From NCBI GenBank assembly GCA_004293645.1, contig REAB01000091.1, positions 1 through 37,751 on the forward strand: a stretch of 37,751 bases of DNA, written 5' to 3'. Position numbers and translations under genes: made by a program. The stretch is from Cytophagia bacterium. Lineage in GTDB: Bacteria > Bacteroidota > Bacteroidia > Cytophagales > Spirosomataceae. Under the pieces are notes generated by a model that worked only from the letters and a program-made list of their open reading frames with translations, searched no databases and was not told where the DNA came from. Positions 5,476 to 20,374 of the stretch are shown piece by piece; within the stretch, counting starts at the first letter, position 1; each line of letters begins with the position of its first letter.

Positions 5476-7041
5476 ATGCACCAGAACTACTATTTTTTGC
5501 GGCAACTCGCCGACGCGCTCCGCCCGCAGGTGGTGGGCTTGAAATTTATGGAGGCTTTTAGCCAAGATAAAGACGAATTTATTGTGGTGTTGGCGCACGC
5601 ACGGGGCAAAAACAATTTTTACCGTCCGTTTTTTTTGCGGGCCACGCTCCGCCCCGATTTTGCGTGTTTAAATTTTCCCGAAGCTTTCAATCGCGCTCGC
5701 ACCAACTCTGCCAATTTGTTTGAACCACTCCTTGATTTGACCGTTACAGGCGTGCGCTCGTTTCTGAACGAACGCGCCATTGCCCTCGAAATCGAAAATG
5801 GTTACTCGCTGGTTTTCAAGCTGTTTGGCAATCGGTCGAATGCTGTTTTGTTTCACCAGGGCGAAGTGATTGATATTTTTAATACCAAATTGGCCGCCGA
5901 TAATCAGCTCAATTTAGCCACCCTCGACCGCCCCCTCGACCAAACTTACGAGGCATATTTAGCAGCTCAATGCGACCACCGAAAACTGTTTCCAACTTTT
6001 GGAAAGGTGCTTAATGCGTACTTAGAAGCGCATTTTACGGCAAATTCGGACCTAAATCCTGCTCAAAAGTGGGCATTTATTCAAGAAGCGATTGGTTCTT
6101 CGGGCGTTTTTTACGTGTCCGAACACAACTACCAGCCCACGCTGTCGCTGCTGCCAATGGGGAAGGTGTGGCGGAAACATACCGACCCGATTGCGGCGGT
6201 AAATGATTTTTACAATAATTATGGCCGCACCAGCAACATTGCCCAAGAAAAAGGCGAGGCGTTGAGACTGTTGCAAAAGCGAATTCTGCGCACCGAAACG
6301 TACGTAAATGAGACCCTCGAAAAGCTCCTTAAAATTGATGAAGGCGTTAAAAACGACGAGTTAGGGCATATTTTGATGGCCAATTTACACCAAATACCCG
6401 ACCGAGTGGAGCAAGTAGTGTTGTTTGATTTTTACCGAAACCAAACCATTTCTATCAAAATCAAAGCCGATTTGAGCCCCCAGAAAAATGCCGAAAACTA
6501 TTATCGAAAGTCGAAAAATGAGCGCATTGAGATTGAGAAATTACAAGAAAATATTAGCCTCCGCGAAGCCGAATTGGTAGAAATGCGGGCGCAATTGGCA
6601 CAAATAGTAGCCATCGAAAACCTCAAAGAACTTCGTAAACACTTGAAAGTCAATCAGATATTAAACCAAACCACTGCCCAAACGCCCGCGCAGCTGTTTA
6701 AGTGGGTGGAGTTTGAAGGCTACGTTATTTTGATTGGCAAAAATGCCAAAAATAATGATTTACTGACCAAAAAATTTGCCCACAAAGACGACCTCTGGCT
6801 GCACGCCCGCGACGTGAGCGGCTCGCACGTGGTAGTAAAGTTTAAGGCAGGTCGAAAAATACCCAACAGCGTGGTGGAGCGGGCGGCGCAGTTGGCGGCT
6901 TGGAACTCTAAACGGCGCGGCGAAACGCTTTGCCCCGTCATTGTAACGCCCAAAAAATTTGTGCGTAAGCCCAAAGGGCTGCCCGAAGGCGCGGTTGTAA
7001 TAGACAAAGAAAGCGTGGTAATGGTCGAACCCAAAGGCTGA
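5476..7041 (+). CDS. rqcH: NFACT-family ribosome-associated quality-control protein RqcH
   Basis: Domains in order are NFACT-N (about 1-200), a helical and coiled-coil middle (about 240-420, with KSKNERIEIEKLQENISLRE) and NFACT-R (about 425-515) with its hallmark DLWLHARDVSGSHVVVK. RqcH/Rqc2 proteins bind stalled 50S subunits carrying peptidyl-tRNA and recruit Ala-tRNA to add C-terminal alanine tails for degradation. At 521 residues it is somewhat shorter than the Bacillus protein (about 570). Older annotation calls such proteins fibronectin-binding. It ends 2 bp before the convergent bshC stop, with no terminator between. The start is fixed by the adjacent -7 element and by the usual N-terminus. 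Confidence 0.88.
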   Translation: MHQNYYFLRQLADALRPQVVGLKFMEAFSQDKDEFIVVLAHARGKNNFYRPFFLRATLRPDFACLNFPEAFNRARTNSANLFEPLLDLTVTGVRSFLNERAIALEIENGYSLVFKLFGNRSNAVLFHQGEVIDIFNTKLAADNQLNLATLDRPLDQTYEAYLAAQCDHRKLFPTFGKVLNAYLEAHFTANSDLNPAQKWAFIQEAIGSSGVFYVSEHNYQPTLSLLPMGKVWRKHTDPIAAVNDFYNNYGRTSNIAQEKGEALRLLQKRILRTETYVNETLEKLLKIDEGVKNDELGHILMANLHQIPDRVEQVVLFDFYRNQTISIKIKADLSPQKNAENYYRKSKNERIEIEKLQENISLREAELVEMRAQLAQIVAIENLKELRKHLKVNQILNQTTAQTPAQLFKWVEFEGYVILIGKNAKNNDLLTKKFAHKDDLWLHARDVSGSHVVVKFKAGRKIPNSVVERAAQLAAWNSKRRGETLCPVIVTPKKFVRKPKGLPEGAVVIDKESVVMVEPKG

Positions 7042-7043
7042 GT

Positions 7044-8591
7044 TTAAGCCTCCAACAGTACATTAAATTGAAAGTCGAGTGGGTTGAGGTGAGCCAACAA
7101 TTTTTGCAAAAAAGTGGCATCGTTGAGGTAAAAATTTAGAAAATTATCGCTGCGCTCTTGCAAGCCACCGTTAGGAAACAGTTTGTTTTTAACTCCCAAC
7201 AGTTGGTTCAACTCGGTTTCGTAGTGCTTTTCTTCGGCTTTTTGCAGGCGTTTTTCTAAGTTTTCGAGGGCGTTGAGTAGCTTGGTTTTTTCGGCGTTCA
7301 CGTTGCCTTCCAGCGATTTGTCTATGTGGAGGGCTTTTTCTAAAATGCCTGCAAAGAGTGTTTCAAAGGTGTTTTTTTCGTCGGTGAGGGTGAGGCTGGC
7401 GGTACTGTTTTGCTTCACAAATTTTTTGCGGAGTTGGGCATCGTCGCCAAAAAGCTCTTCGGGTTGAACGGCCAGTTTTTCGAGTCTTTTTTGGTGCAAC
7501 GCATTGATATACAGCACAAAATTGCGCGGCAATAGCATCGGAAATGGCACATTGAAATGGGCAAAAACACCGCGCAGTTGTAGCCAATATGGTACTTCGG
7601 ACGGTCCACCAATGTAGGCCAAATTGGGTAAAATCATTTCTTGGTACAAAGGCCGAAGTACCACATTTGGACTCAGTTTTTCGGGACTTTGCGCTACTAT
7701 TTGCCGCATTTCCGCTTCTGAAAATGCCAAATCGCTGCCGAGTACTTTAAAAACTTCGCCTTCGCGCACAATACGTTCGCGCAGGCCGTCTTCCAAATAA
7801 AACAAATTGATTTCGCGCGGCGCAATTGGGGTGTGGTAGCCCATGGCTTCGATATCGGCGGTGGTTTTTTGAACCAGCGGGTGGGCGGTTTGTTCAAAAA
7901 GCTCGGCCTCAGCCACGGGCGCAAAGATTTTTTTGAGGGCGGCATCGTCGCCGTCTATGCACACCAGCCCTTCGTGACCAAACAAATCGTGCATGTAGCT
8001 GCGCACGGCATTGGCCAAGGTGTCGTTTTTTAAGTACGCTTTTTCAAAAATTGGCAGTCGTTCGGGCAGTATTTTGAGGGCTTCGCCCAGTTCGCGCGGG
8101 TTCATGCGGCCTACTGCCCCTTTTTGTTGGGTTTGCCAGGTGTATTTTCGGCCAAAAAGATTAAAATAACTAATTTCCTCAAAATCGTGGTCTTCGGTAG
8201 CCATCCAATAAACGGGTACAAAATTGTAGGCAGGATAGGCTTTTTTGAGGTTTCGAGCCAAATTGATGGCCGTAACTATTTTGTAAACAACGTAAAGCGG
8301 CCCCGTAAAAATATTAAGTTGGTGGCCCGTTGTAACGGTAAAAGTATTGGATTGGGCCAGCAATTGAAGGTTTGGCGCGGCAGGCAGATGGGCATATTGC
8401 CGCTCCAAAGCGGCCACCAGCGTGGTTCGGGTAGCCGCGTCTGTTTGTTTGGCGCGAATTTGCTCCTCAAAGTTTTCGATGTTTGGGAAAAGACCGTAAA
8501 ATGGCCGCAGTAGTTCGTGTTGGGCAATATAATCTAAAAACAAAGGCGGGAACGCGCCCGTCGCTGCGAGTGGTAGCGATTGCTGAACCAT
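7044..8591 (-). CDS. bshC: Bacillithiol biosynthesis cysteine-adding enzyme BshC
   Basis: BshC is the putative ligase that attaches cysteine to glucosaminyl-malate in the last step of bacillithiol synthesis. The 515 residues carry the family signatures TTGHQLNIFTGPLYVVYKI (about residues 85-105) and PVYWMATEDHDFEEI (about 125-140). A C-terminal coiled-coil region (LENLEKRLQKAEEKHYETEL) is also typical. bshA and bshB are not in the window, so the pathway is dispersed. The gene converges on rqcH with 2 bp between stops. Confidence 0.95.
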   Translation of the reverse strand: MVQQSLPLAATGAFPPLFLDYIAQHELLRPFYGLFPNIENFEEQIRAKQTDAATRTTLVAALERQYAHLPAAPNLQLLAQSNTFTVTTGHQLNIFTGPLYVVYKIVTAINLARNLKKAYPAYNFVPVYWMATEDHDFEEISYFNLFGRKYTWQTQQKGAVGRMNPRELGEALKILPERLPIFEKAYLKNDTLANAVRSYMHDLFGHEGLVCIDGDDAALKKIFAPVAEAELFEQTAHPLVQKTTADIEAMGYHTPIAPREINLFYLEDGLRERIVREGEVFKVLGSDLAFSEAEMRQIVAQSPEKLSPNVVLRPLYQEMILPNLAYIGGPSEVPYWLQLRGVFAHFNVPFPMLLPRNFVLYINALHQKRLEKLAVQPEELFGDDAQLRKKFVKQNSTASLTLTDEKNTFETLFAGILEKALHIDKSLEGNVNAEKTKLLNALENLEKRLQKAEEKHYETELNQLLGVKNKLFPNGGLQERSDNFLNFYLNDATFLQKLLAHLNPLDFQFNVLLEA

Positions 8592-17221: not shown

Positions 17222-17503
17222 ACAAGGTTAAATTTATGGAAGAGAATCATTTCCACAAAAACTGTCAGACAACCAGAAAGTTTATTTATAAAACAAATAC
17301 CAGCCATTTATTACCCTGATTCTCCTGTCAAAAATGCCAGACTTTGTAACTGGTCGGATGCTCAAGCACCTGCCGTTTACAAATACTTAAGAGAGGAGTG
17401 TGAAGACGATATGCGGTGTAGCTTCTCTTGCTCATTCGCCCCTTGTCAAATTGGATTTCTATCTAAAACTGTTTACAAATGCTGTATAGACGATGAACTT
17501 TAA
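17222..17503 (+). pseudogene. Start-less Cys-rich reading frame, possible gene remnant
   Basis: The frame is open for 93 codons from just after a TAG at 17219 to TAA at 17501-17503, with no ATG, GTG or TTG in its first half; the only ATG gives 30 residues. The predicted sequence is compositionally protein-like, with seven Cys in its last ~52 codons (NARLCNWSDAQAPAVYKYL, then EECEDDMRCSFSCSFAPCQ and YKCC). A 27-codon frame starting at ATG 17236 overlaps its 5' part in another phase, so a frameshifted gene is possible. I do not recognise a family. The rest of the gap 17107-17531 is AT-rich and shows only the SPOR promoter. It may be chance. Confidence 0.3.
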
Positions 17504-17531
17504 TTATTAAAAACATTTAATTCACAAGAAA

Positions 17532-17705
17532 ATGAAAGCAATTCTTTGGTTTACAATTGGAGTTATAATGATACTCATTGGTTGTTTTTTATTCATCTCA
17601 CACACTAACTTGGTACTTAGTAGGATACTTATGGGAGCAGGTGTGTTATTTGAAGTAATAGGCGTACTAAAATGGGTAAGATTGCAGATCCAAAAGCGTA
17701 CTTAG
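17532..17705 (+). CDS. Small two-helix membrane protein (57 residues)
   Basis: ATG at 17532 opens a 57-codon frame ending at TAG 17703-17705. The product has two hydrophobic helices: about residues 3-24 (ILWFTIGVIMILIGCFLFI) and about 30-49 (LSRILMGAGVLFEVIGVL), and a basic tail (RLQIQKRT), an N-out/C-in or hairpin topology. Codon use is AT-rich like the kinase gene downstream. No Shine-Dalgarno and no clear -7 element is seen. I do not recognise the family. It lies directly before the first 69-bp palindromic repeat. The amphipathic layout and clean helices argue for a real gene over a chance frame. Confidence 0.6.
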   Translation: MKAILWFTIGVIMILIGCFLFISHTNLVLSRILMGAGVLFEVIGVLKWVRLQIQKRT

Positions 17706-17737
17706 TTTTTCAAAAGATAGGAGTAAAAAACATTGGT

Positions 17738-17806
17738 CAAAACGTAATAACCCGCACTACTGGCACCCTTCAAATGGGCGACAGCGTGCGGGTGATGAGT
17801 CGAAAA
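17738..17806 (+). repeat. 69-bp direct repeat, copy 1 (palindromic core)
   Basis: It is identical to 18489-18557 at 62 of 69 positions, including 38 consecutive identical bases (17764-17801). The core folds as ACCCGCA ... TGCGGGT, with inner CCC/GGG around TTCAAAT. It lies just upstream of the kinase promoter. Confidence 0.92.
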
Positions 17807-17842
17807 CAGTCAGACCGCTAACTGACGTTCAATGAAAAATAG

Positions 17843-17850
17843 TAACTTTG
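17843..17850 (+). promoter_or_regulatory. -7 element TAACTTTG for the kinase gene
   Basis: TAnnTTTG lies 11 nt before the ATG at 17862. No matching -33 TTTG is seen at the normal distance, which would fall at the edge of repeat copy 1. Confidence 0.5.
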
Positions 17851-17861
17851 GCAAAAATTGA

Positions 17862-18479
17862 ATGACTAATGAACACTCTTCTATCCTTACAAAAGCTATC
17901 GAAGCAGCAAATGGAAATCTTATCCAAGCAACCTTCTTTCAGCTTGGAGCAAGCCAAGCAGCAAGTAGAAAGGCTCAGCACTCAGAGCGCGTCAGTAAAA
18001 AAGCTGAAATAGAAATATTAAAGTCTTTTGCCGAAAACAATCACTATTGGTTCAAGAAAATCAAACAAGAAAATTATATCGGCGAAGGTGCAGAACAAAA
18101 AGTATATCTCGAAGACAATGGTAAATACGTTTTAAAAATAAACGACGCCGTTTTCTATGCTTCTTGGACTGATTATTTTATCAATTTACTGATTCACAAT
18201 CTTTTATTTCCTGCCACCGCATACCAGCTTTTAGGGTTTTATCAATTAGAAACCGCCTTTTATGCTGTTGTAAAGCAGCCTTTTATTGCTTCAACACAGC
18301 CCACAGATTTATTAGAACTTAGGTCTTTTCTCCAAGAAAATGGGTTTGTTTGTAAAAAGAACAATGACTATTTTCATTCTGAATTGGGCATCATTCTGGA
18401 AGATTTGCACGATGCCAATGTTTTAACGAATCAAGGAGTTTTCTTTTTTATTGACAATGCTATTTACTTAATTCCGTAG
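17862..18479 (+). CDS. Stand-alone 'polyvalent protein' Ser/Thr/Tyr-type kinase (Kinase-PolyVal)
   Basis: The 205-residue protein matches the kinase fold found as one domain of large polyvalent proteins of phages and conjugative elements. Visible elements are a glycine-rich loop IGEGAEQKVYL (73-83), the ATP lysine K92 in YVLKINDAVFY, the helical core (DYFINLLIHNLLFPATAYQL), QPFI, the catalytic loop EDLHDANVL (D181, N186) and metal-binding D198 in FFFID. The catalytic loop resembles the DLHxxNVL of aminoglycoside-phosphotransferase-like kinases, so it looks active. Residues 1-68 are a helical N-terminal region. It is AT-rich against its neighbours and flanked by direct 69-bp repeats, suggesting recent acquisition. 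Its substrate is unknown; no phage or conjugation genes are adjacent. Confidence 0.8.
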   Translation: MTNEHSSILTKAIEAANGNLIQATFFQLGASQAASRKAQHSERVSKKAEIEILKSFAENNHYWFKKIKQENYIGEGAEQKVYLEDNGKYVLKINDAVFYASWTDYFINLLIHNLLFPATAYQLLGFYQLETAFYAVVKQPFIASTQPTDLLELRSFLQENGFVCKKNNDYFHSELGIILEDLHDANVLTNQGVFFFIDNAIYLIP

Positions 18480-18488
18480 CATTAACGC

Positions 18489-18557
18489 CAAAACGTCATC
18501 ACCCGCAGCGCTGACACCCTTCAAATGGGCGACAGCGTGCGGGTGATGAGTCAAAAA
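18489..18557 (+). repeat. 69-bp direct repeat, copy 2 (palindromic core)
   Basis: The palindrome is better preserved than in copy 1: ATCACCCGCA (18498-18507) pairs with TGCGGGTGAT (18538-18547), with inner CGCTG/CAGCG and CCC/GGG pairs around TTCAAAT. It lies 9 bp after the kinase stop and 29 bp before the deaD stop, so it may also serve as a 3' hairpin for either gene. Confidence 0.92.
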
Positions 18558-18586
18558 ATATCGGAACGCCGACGCGGGCGAAACGT

Positions 18587-20374
18587 TTAGCTCTTAGCTA
18601 CTTCGATGCTTACTTCGCGGCCTTTGATGGTGTTGCCACCCATGGCCGAAATCACTTTGGTTACGTCGCGCTCGGGCACTTCTACAAACGAGTAGCTGTC
18701 GAAGATATCAATCGAACCAATTACTTTGCCCGGAATACCCGACTCGCCTGCAATAGCACCCACAATGTCGCGGGGCTGTACGTGGTCTTTGCGGCCTACG
18801 CTCACAAACAAACGAACCATACCTGGCTGTCCGCCTGGCATACCCCGACGCTCAGGGCGCGGCCCACGGTCGCCGAAGCTGCCGCTGCCACCAGCAGGTC
18901 CACGGCGGTCGTCGCGGCCACCACGGTCGCCAAAACTACCACTACTCCGACGGTCGCCGTAGCCACCACGGTCGCCATAACCACCACGGTCATCGCGGTT
19001 GCCACGCTCAAAAGGACGCTCAGCGCCACGGCGGCTGCGGTCGTCTTCGCCCCAAGCCAGTTCGTGGTCAGAAAAATCACTTTTTTGAACGCCCATGTTT
19101 ATTTTAACCAATGCCGCCACCACTTGCTCGGCACTTAGGCCAGTATTGTGTTGCAGCACTGCCATCATATCTTGGTACACGTCCAAGTCGCCTTCTTTGG
19201 CGGCTTGCTCTACTTGCTCAATGAAACGCGCTTTGCGCACGCCCACTATGTCTTCAAAAGATGGAATAACACCTTTGTCAATTTTTACTTTGGTGTAGCC
19301 TTCTATTTGACGCAGGCGGTATTTTTCGTCTTTGCCCACCAGCGTAAGGGCTTTGCCAGTAAGGCCAGCCCGGCCTGTGCGGCCAATGCGGTGTACGTAA
19401 TATTCTTCGTCGAGCGGCAAGTCGAAGTTGATAACGGCATCAATACCCGACACGTCAATACCCCGGGCGGCTACATCGGTAGCTACCAAAATATTGGCAG
19501 CAGCCGACCGAAACTTGGCCATTACTTGGTTGCGTTGGGTTTGGCGCAAGTCGCCGTGCAAGCTCTCTACTGAGTAGCCTTTTAACGAGAGTTCTTCGGT
19601 TACTTCATCTACTTTGCGTTTGGTATTACAAAACACAATGACTTGTTTCAGGTCGTAAGCATCTAACAATCGGCAAGTTACCTCAATTTTGGCGCGTTGT
19701 TTTACTTCAAAATAAGTTTGCTCAATGTTTTCGTTAGTTACCTCTTTCCGCGTTATTTTAATCATAACGGGGTTTTCTTGAAACTTCTGCGCAATGGCCA
19801 TAATGGGTTTCGACATGGTAGCCGAAAACAACACTGTTTGGCGCTCTGTTGGCACACTTTCTAAGATGGTGTCAATGTCTTCGCGGAAACCCATGTCGAG
19901 CATTTCGTCGGCCTCGTCAAGCACTACGTAGTTCACAAAATCAAGTTTCAAAGATTTGCGCTCAATCAAGTCCATCACGCGGCCAGGCGTACCTACCACA
20001 ATGTGCGCGCCCATTTTGAGCGAACGGATTTGCCGCTCAATTGAATCGCCACCGTAAACGGTTTCGAGTTTTAAGCCCTTTTTGAACTTGGCAATGCGGC
20101 GCAGCTCTTCGGTTACTTGCACGGCCAACTCGCGGGTGGGGCAAAGCATCAATACTTGCGTGCGTTTGTCGGAAATGTCCACCTGTTCTAAGGCTGGAAT
20201 ACCAAAGGCGGCGGTTTTGCCCGTACCCGTTTGGGCTTGGCCGAGTACGTCGCGGCCTTGCAAAAGCGGCGGAATGGCCTCAGCTTGGATGGGGGAGGGT
20301 TTTTCAAAACCCATTTCAGTTACGGCTTTCAGAATCTCGTCCGAAAGGCCCAACGAATTAAATAATACTTCCAT
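18587..20374 (-). CDS. deaD: DEAD-box RNA helicase, DeaD/CsdA type
   Basis: The 595-residue ATP-dependent RNA helicase carries the Q motif (FEKPSPIQ), motif I AQTGTGKT (47-54), PTRELA, TPGR, DEAD (153-156), SAT (184-186), ARGID and HRIGRTGRAG. After about residue 455 comes an RGG/GYGDR-rich low-complexity stretch with repeated GGYGDR and SFGDRG, then a DbpA-type RNA-binding domain at the C-terminus (VRLFVSVGRKDHV onward). DeaD proteins help ribosome assembly and mRNA turnover, especially in the cold. The frame extends 29 codons further upstream, but the internal ATG at 20374 gives the family N-terminus (MEVLFNSLGLS). The leader is about 300 nt and carries a terminator-like hairpin. Confidence 0.95.
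   Translation of the reverse strand: MEVLFNSLGLSDEILKAVTEMGFEKPSPIQAEAIPPLLQGRDVLGQAQTGTGKTAAFGIPALEQVDISDKRTQVLMLCPTRELAVQVTEELRRIAKFKKGLKLETVYGGDSIERQIRSLKMGAHIVVGTPGRVMDLIERKSLKLDFVNYVVLDEADEMLDMGFREDIDTILESVPTERQTVLFSATMSKPIMAIAQKFQENPVMIKITRKEVTNENIEQTYFEVKQRAKIEVTCRLLDAYDLKQVIVFCNTKRKVDEVTEELSLKGYSVESLHGDLRQTQRNQVMAKFRSAAANILVATDVAARGIDVSGIDAVINFDLPLDEEYYVHRIGRTGRAGLTGKALTLVGKDEKYRLRQIEGYTKVKIDKGVIPSFEDIVGVRKARFIEQVEQAAKEGDLDVYQDMMAVLQHNTGLSAEQVVAALVKINMGVQKSDFSDHELAWGEDDRSRRGAERPFERGNRDDRGGYGDRGGYGDRRSSGSFGDRGGRDDRRGPAGGSGSFGDRGPRPERRGMPGGQPGMVRLFVSVGRKDHVQPRDIVGAIAGESGIPGKVIGSIDIFDSYSFVEVPERDVTKVISAMGGNTIKGREVSIEVAKS

Follow-up and report, generated by a model that had tools for sequence, protein, structure and literature searches.

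A conserved out-of-frame gene in the 5' end of stand-alone Kinase-PolyVal genes of Bacteroidota: a candidate toxin-antitoxin pair that in some loci lies between copies of duplicated target DNA

Introduction

What does a kinase domain do as a gene of its own, and how does it come to lie between two direct repeats? Both questions are raised by one window (the whole stretch of DNA analyzed here, 37,751 nucleotides of a Cytophagia bacterium), in which an initial annotation had described a Kinase-PolyVal gene in an AT-rich island and had proposed a mobile or recombinogenic cassette. Stand-alone Kinase-PolyVal versions in Bacteroidetes have already been reported in the accessible part of an earlier survey (Iyer et al. 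2017, PMC5512222). In the searchable part of the open-licence literature we found no function for the stand-alone family, and the available portion of one further paper names Kinase-PolyVal merely in a list of families (PMC9758233).

Results

The window contains an intact Kinase-PolyVal ORF of 205 amino acids at 17862-18479 on the forward strand, recognized from its reading frame, the PF18762 profile, an alignment and a structure model. The profile scored 192.6 bits against a curated cut-off of 27, and the residues previously named as an intact catalytic set (K92, D181, N186 and D198) proved invariant in an alignment of 40 sequences. The structure model (mean pLDDT 85.7) was matched by Foldseek to protein kinases over part of the chain, with CK2 first (best E 7e-4, TM 0.39 by query); three chains had E < 0.001, with TM about 0.33-0.39 of the query. 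A sequence search of solved structures with the window kinase gave no significant match. The protein is a single domain, not the several domains in one long polypeptide that make a protein polyvalent.

The kinase gene lies in a unit of 682 bp (17807-18488, forward strand), and composition bears out the AT-rich island described earlier: GC is 0.356 for the unit and 0.354 for the kinase gene versus 0.506 for gmd, 0.512 for deaD and 0.462 for the window. No transposase ORF appears inside the unit in the ORF list of the window. The AT-rich stretch at 17222-17705 holds a start-less Cys-rich frame and a 57-residue two-helix membrane ORF, which had been put forward as cassette members. The membrane ORF matched only itself in a protein search, and at a threshold of E 1e-3 neither frame turned up in 80 kinase loci (a further search gave one weak match, with E 0.038), so we do not count them as parts of the unit. 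At the start of the window, an ORF at 8-343 is built of repeated SNAKNANLTAKNALL-like units.

The kinase does stand alone in the window, as the initial annotation said, but it is no rarity in this form: a genome collection held 342 confirmed stand-alone loci, protein clusters of similar length numbered 1016, and the accessible part of the 2017 survey describes such forms (PMC5512222). The best 80 of the 342 loci were fetched for analysis, one of them labelled as a proteobacterial MAG; many of the relatives are MAGs. The kinase was present in 7 of 59 relatives, in 12 of 395 genomes of a phylum sample and, if fragments and a single giant protein are counted, in 101 of 398 Flavobacterium genomes. 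A tally of neighbors, which had been called for, gave no recurring operon partner, the largest recurring cluster being found in 6 of the 80 loci, and gene order, whose conservation had been named as a sign against a mobile cassette, varies among loci. A phage or plasmid origin was considered and rejected, as neither the phage nor the plasmid collection gave a match; the PADLOC defence library gave none. Kinase fragments were also considered as a multi-copy mobile repeat and rejected, with one match in 17 of 20 genomes; each of the other three has one extra match, which is 29 bp long in one genome, 33 bp long in another and a full kinase gene in the third.

We take as the main feature of the locus a second gene, which the initial annotation had passed over. 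ORF A, a predicted antitoxin gene at 17869-18012 on the forward strand, is nested in the kinase gene in its +1 frame; it has 47 codons and a stop in the window and generally about 48 codons, within the first 150 bases of the kinase gene. The +1 frame is open in all 81 loci (the 80 and the window), with a median length of 50 codons, compared with 12 for the +2 frame. An ORF A HMM also detected it in 43/43 loci of a second set, five of which repeat the first set and two of which (L162 and L248) are one place. The frame relation is +2 rather than +1 in L162, L167, L169 and L248, which we took for broken kinases because the kinase matched there in two pieces. None of the stand-alone kinase loci examined was without ORF A; the giant relative L269, a frame of 2550 amino acids, does not have it. 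The ORF A protein is of the type MNYxISFQERAKLxMExLSKQxPVTLExARxQAxxLK and is modelled as a two-helix hairpin (mean pLDDT 84.4). Pfam and NCBIfam yielded no family for it, and no known antitoxin family matched. A protein search with ORF A returned 95 clusters, called hypothetical protein where annotated, and ORF A has probably been missed by annotation because gene callers keep the longer frame. In one locus, L251 (G787:C6:57432-57776), the kinase is without its middle, residues 3-72 being joined to 163-207, and ORF A is intact.

Codon-position entropy was computed for 75 of the 81 loci, with six broken kinases left out. It had the pattern of +1-frame coding over codons 3-45 (1.18/0.78/0.70) and of kinase-frame coding from about codon 56, including codons 71-200. 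Against synonymous recodings of ORF A, the kinase frame of the overlap had 2 stops where 226.9 were expected; the +2 frame had no deficit (314 seen, 262.8 expected). The +1-frame coding signal together with the deficit of stops in the kinase frame therefore shows, at the level of sequence, that both frames are under selection in the overlap; both appear to be read. Across the 80 full loci, pN/pS was 0.61 for ORF A, 1.08 for the kinase frame in the overlap and 0.63 for the kinase body, at distances near saturation, so that ORF A is effectively no lower than the kinase body.

The two start codons lie close together: a kinase-frame ATG is found upstream of the ORF A ATG in 68/75 loci, at a distance of exactly 7 nt in 38/75. 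Upstream of the kinase ATG of the window by 11 nt is TAACTTTG (17843-17850, forward strand), which we take to be a Bacteroidota-type -7 element; the gene's own -7 element had been described before. TAnnTTTG was present within 40 nt upstream in 46/75 loci, compared with 3.6% in single-base shuffles. These promoter and start-codon counts cover 75 of the 81 loci, the remaining six having no ORF A ATG by the rule applied.

ORF A also occurs by itself. In about 17 Flavobacterium genomes only the N-terminal part of the kinase was matched, in many cases with stops, and 18 aligned fragments suggested conservation of another frame. ORF A was detected by HMM, and the kinase by an HMM of the body only, the overlap being excluded. 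All 19 fragment loci had ORF A and 3 had a kinase body, leaving 16/19 without one. In 12 of the 19 loci, the stand-alone ORF A had a pN/pS of 0.34 and the kinase frame there 1.70. In a class sample ORF A was found in 42 of 395 genomes; 30 loci were fetched, of which 23 had the kinase body and 7 had none in the about 1.5 kb downstream. These data show that ORF A is maintained on its own, under purifying selection, at sites that have lost the kinase. ORF A-like segments were further seen in proteins of 112-118 amino acids, with no kinase, in L303 (1968-2741), L304 (1935-2658) and L300 (4551-5367); such segments adjoin cREC_REC genes in two loci of a single genome and stand behind HAD_SAK_2. Several enzymes may use such a segment as a partner module, and the presence of the segment beside non-kinase genes fits a general adaptor equally.

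The direct repeats around the kinase are copy U at 17738-17806 and copy D at 18489-18557, both on the forward strand. They agree with their earlier description (62/69 identical, spacing 751 bp) and are GC-rich (0.52 and 0.55). A search of the genome itself found three such sequences, plus the reverse-strand self-match of the palindrome; a REP-like family spread over the genome was ruled out by this number, which is also far from the hundreds of copies that had been named as a sign against a cassette. The third copy is the end of an intact MOSC-domain gene (PF03473, PF03476) on another contig, C70. Copy U (64/69 identical to the C70 gene) and copy D (59/69), which adjoins the deaD 3' end, are both 3'-end fragments of a MOSC-domain gene and share with the C70 end one reading frame, QN(V/I)ITR...TLQ(M/V)GDSVRVMS. 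The C70 gene was matched in 42 of 59 genomes, and the C-termini displayed have the same end motif; the repeat is therefore ordinary coding sequence. MOSC likeness may extend into the 57-residue membrane ORF (E 8.5e-10, one stop).

Folded as single-stranded DNA, copy U had a z of -3.7, copy D of -7.0 and the parent MOSC stretch of -2.8. The palindrome is already present in the parent gene and is stronger in copy D (18489-18557), whose hairpin is far better than the parent's and whose changes are clustered in one arm. This hairpin may be a terminator between the kinase and deaD, or may reflect quasi-palindrome correction.

No MOSC body adjoins either copy in the window, the intact gene being on C70. 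We also considered that the MOSC gene might belong to the neighborhood of deaD or SPOR and rejected this, no such linkage being found within 1.5 kb in 30 MOSC, 29 deaD and 30 SPOR loci; in the comparison of the 30 SPOR loci, MOSC matches were present at the locus of the window only. The MOSC ends therefore most likely came to their present place from elsewhere. Twelve bases, AAACGTTTAGCT, occur both at the C70 MOSC end and at the junction of copy D with the deaD end (18580-18595), and may be the joint between the two. The assembly is a draft of 241 contigs.

For a wider view of such repeats, the 500 bp on each side of the kinase were compared in the 71 of 80 loci that have flanks of this length, and a score of at least 25 was counted as a bracket. 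Brackets were found in 20/71 kinase loci versus 6/178 control ORFs (150-280 amino acids, same loci), and all six bracketed controls were in two repeat-array loci, L158 and L098; 51/71 kinase loci had no bracket at this score. The mean local score was 29.0 over 72 loci (the 71 and the window), compared with 9.7, and 20 at most, for mismatched flank pairs. When the 80 loci (1.03 Mb) were compared with themselves, 20 of them had repeats spanning the kinase. Another 94 repeat pairs lay elsewhere, of which L098, L158 and L084 had 69 and 14 loci had the others. In a Flavobacterium set with 29 of 30 loci usable, the 25 loci outside the first set had brackets in 4/25 versus 0/200 control pairs, and 2 of 13 other loci were bracketed, one being the Runella site described below. 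A cultured strain, Runella sp. MFBS21, is also among the bracketed loci.

In several brackets the duplicated DNA is a gene border. The L084 bracket runs for 80 bp up to the stop codon of a gene with a peptidase-M1 domain; that of L104 is an LptD gene end (60/60 identical), that of L157 a Methylase_S end, and that of L139 an epimerase end, and the bracket of L142 is a gene start. Several others are terminator-like or interspersed repeats, not copies of gene ends. Unit ends were compared by eye in 18 loci, and the DNA between the copies measured 665-937 bp in 15 of these (682 in the window). By comparison of sequences, these data show that a sizeable minority of loci have duplicated target DNA on both sides of a kinase-only unit.

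Repeats of other kinds were also encountered. L158 (324-7929) and L237 (406-2263) are integron-like arrays, in which small ORFs are each followed by an attC-like repeat of about 125-130 bp; the repeats, 11 in L158 and 3 in L237, are near-identical. The kinase is one member, and a HigB toxin gene with an HTH gene is another member in L237. In L098 (about 5600-7300), which was left out of the bracket argument, the kinase stands beside a CRISPR-like array and further repeats. Accessory genes between direct repeats were seen in L135 (5491-6314, a possible antitoxin-PIN pair), L146 (6236-7808, ATPase-like) and L144 (9428-11028, lipoprotein-like), and direct-repeat mobility may therefore not be special to the kinase.

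Empty sites were sought and found at one target, that of L084, whose target gene is present in 12 of 13 Runella genomes. In 2/12 the kinase lies behind the gene and is followed in turn by a repeat of the gene end; in 10/12 there is a single gene-end copy and no kinase in the flanks. Among the kinase-free Runella genomes, a 26-bp match on another contig of G455 is the exception. The unit is 662/712 identical in the two carriers, compared with 602/893 for the final 900 bp of the target gene, and has therefore probably moved between species. Each bracket is mainly like the local DNA, and the first bases of the distal copy in G030 resemble another Runella clade. The proposal of a mobile or recombinogenic cassette is thus upheld by target-duplicated brackets in many genomes and by empty sites in Runella.

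Discussion

We give roughly even chances to the reading that the window carries a 0.68-kb unit, a kinase gene with ORF A nested in it, which landed by target duplication and encodes a predicted kinase toxin and its antitoxin. The broader claim, that this is a natural toxin-antitoxin pair with the antitoxin out of frame inside the toxin gene and that it travels through Bacteroidota as a 0.7-kb unit by target duplication, is more tentative and falls somewhat short of even. In toxin-antitoxin pairs the partner is retained without the toxin, not the reverse. In the loci examined ORF A was kept without the kinase and never the kinase without ORF A, which led us to a toxin-antitoxin interpretation.

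The overlap and the brackets are established by sequence comparison; toxicity, neutralization and the recombination route are inferred and would be as follows. Two start codons, as a rule separated by 7 to 22 nt, would be used on one mRNA with a short leader to yield the kinase and the ORF A product, and the latter would restrain the kinase. Loss of the unit would leave a stable kinase unrestrained, so that the unit would resist loss, and nesting would stop the kinase and ORF A from being parted when the 0.7 kb moves. Landing by recombination at a gene border would leave two target copies with no gene broken. For the window, a later rearrangement towards deaD would have to be added, because the MOSC body is not adjacent to the window copies.

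The overlap could also be read as a single protein, made by programmed -1 frameshifting, of which ORF A is the true N-terminus; ribosomes would begin on ORF A and, close to where it ends, slip to the frame of the kinase. At about that point constraint does pass from the +1 frame to that of the kinase, and a slippery X_XXY_YYZ heptamer is present in 24/81 loci (A_AAA_AAG at 17997-18003 in the window). However, 57/81 loci have no heptamer, in a few of the 24 it lies well before the ORF A end, and at other sites ORF A occurs by itself and ends in a stop of its own. A frameshift would moreover have no need of a kinase frame kept open upstream of the junction (2 stops versus 226.9), and we regard this explanation as doubtful. 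Somewhat more credit, still on the unlikely side, goes to a defence or signalling pair, in which infection or stress would lead the kinase to phosphorylate a target, ORF A would serve the kinase as sensor, adaptor or substrate, and mobility would reflect benefit to the host. This would suit the patchy distribution of the kinase, the ORF A-like segments beside cREC_REC (two loci, one genome) and behind HAD_SAK_2, and a domain that is shared with phage and element proteins, according to the accessible part of the 2017 survey (PMC5512222). Yet the defence library and the phage collection gave no match, defence neighbors do not recur (the largest recurring cluster is in 6/80 loci), and retention of ORF A without the kinase is less expected of an adaptor.

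The brackets themselves invite two other accounts, to each of which we assign very little probability. They could be cassette ends of an integron-like or transposon system with an incidental MOSC likeness, as the hairpins formed by the copies and the attC-like repeats (11 and 3) around the kinase in L158 and L237 might suggest. Against this, the genome holds three copies, one of which closes the coding sequence of an intact MOSC gene and has the conserved family motif, brackets vary between loci and are often gene ends, and the unit is without a transposase ORF. They could instead be an accident of assembly or duplication, the MOSC ends being unrelated to the kinase. The draft assembly (241 contigs), the many MAGs among the relatives and the missing MOSC body would be in keeping with an accident, but the two copies differ at 7/69 positions, and the controls reveal a general link between kinase and bracket that extends to cultured strains (Runella sp. 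MFBS21).

Under the toxin-antitoxin reading, the stand-alone Kinase-PolyVal family would gain a role. A conserved protein gene has gone unnoticed inside a gene of hundreds of genomes, and single-gene units with empty sites in sister species make insertion with long target duplication open to study in Bacteroidota. The titles and beginnings of abstracts in the open-licence literature contained no description that we could find of the overlap between ORF A and the kinase. The kinase shares with the Kinase-PolyVal of Iyer et al. 2017 (PMC5512222) the PF18762 family, the catalytic residues and the stand-alone form; the accessible part of that survey describes neither an overlapping ORF nor a target-duplicated unit and only proposes phosphorylation of host proteins.

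Among mobile systems, integron gene cassettes are approached by L158 and L237, where the kinase is in an array with attC-like repeats. The window and the other inspected bracketed loci differ in having local DNA of differing sequence, and attC sites common through an array are absent from the window, the array-like pattern being found in L158 and L237. A closer parallel is insertion with long target duplication, which Nobusato and colleagues reportedly described in 2000 for restriction-modification genes of Helicobacter. An available excerpt of the literature describes such insertions of these genes, and the likeness lies in long direct target repeats around a gene unit and a single copy at the empty site (PMC1643837). 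As far as that excerpt goes, our case differs in being a 0.7-kb kinase unit of Bacteroidota and in a window without the target gene body. Bracketed units are found here, a single-copy empty site is found at one Runella site, and no target gene body is joined to either window copy.

Kinase toxins of type II toxin-antitoxin pairs are known in HipA and zeta, and, in the accessible part of the source, HipBA and epsilon-zeta resemble our unit in the small partner beside the kinase, which also occurs alone, and in mobility (PMC3874152). They differ, on the same partial view, in that the predicted partner is here nested out of frame in the kinase gene. As in type II pairs, the predicted toxin gene was never without the predicted antitoxin gene (81/81, 43/43), the partner occurs alone (16/19, 7/30), and the small partner is under purifying selection (pN/pS 0.34, n = 12). 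Nested out-of-frame genes are themselves known from lambda Rz/Rz1 and from comS in srfA of Bacillus. These have in common with ORF A a small protein gene in another frame of another gene; ORF A differs in overlapping the 5' end of the larger gene, in occurring also by itself, and in belonging to a probably mobile pair. Engineered entangled genes, in the available parts of two papers (PMC8528312, PMC10359631), likewise use overlapping frames to lock genes together; they are laboratory designs, whereas the kinase and ORF A are a natural, widespread pair. If the kinase and ORF A are toxin and antitoxin, they would be a natural welding of such a pair by the same idea as in engineered entangled genes.
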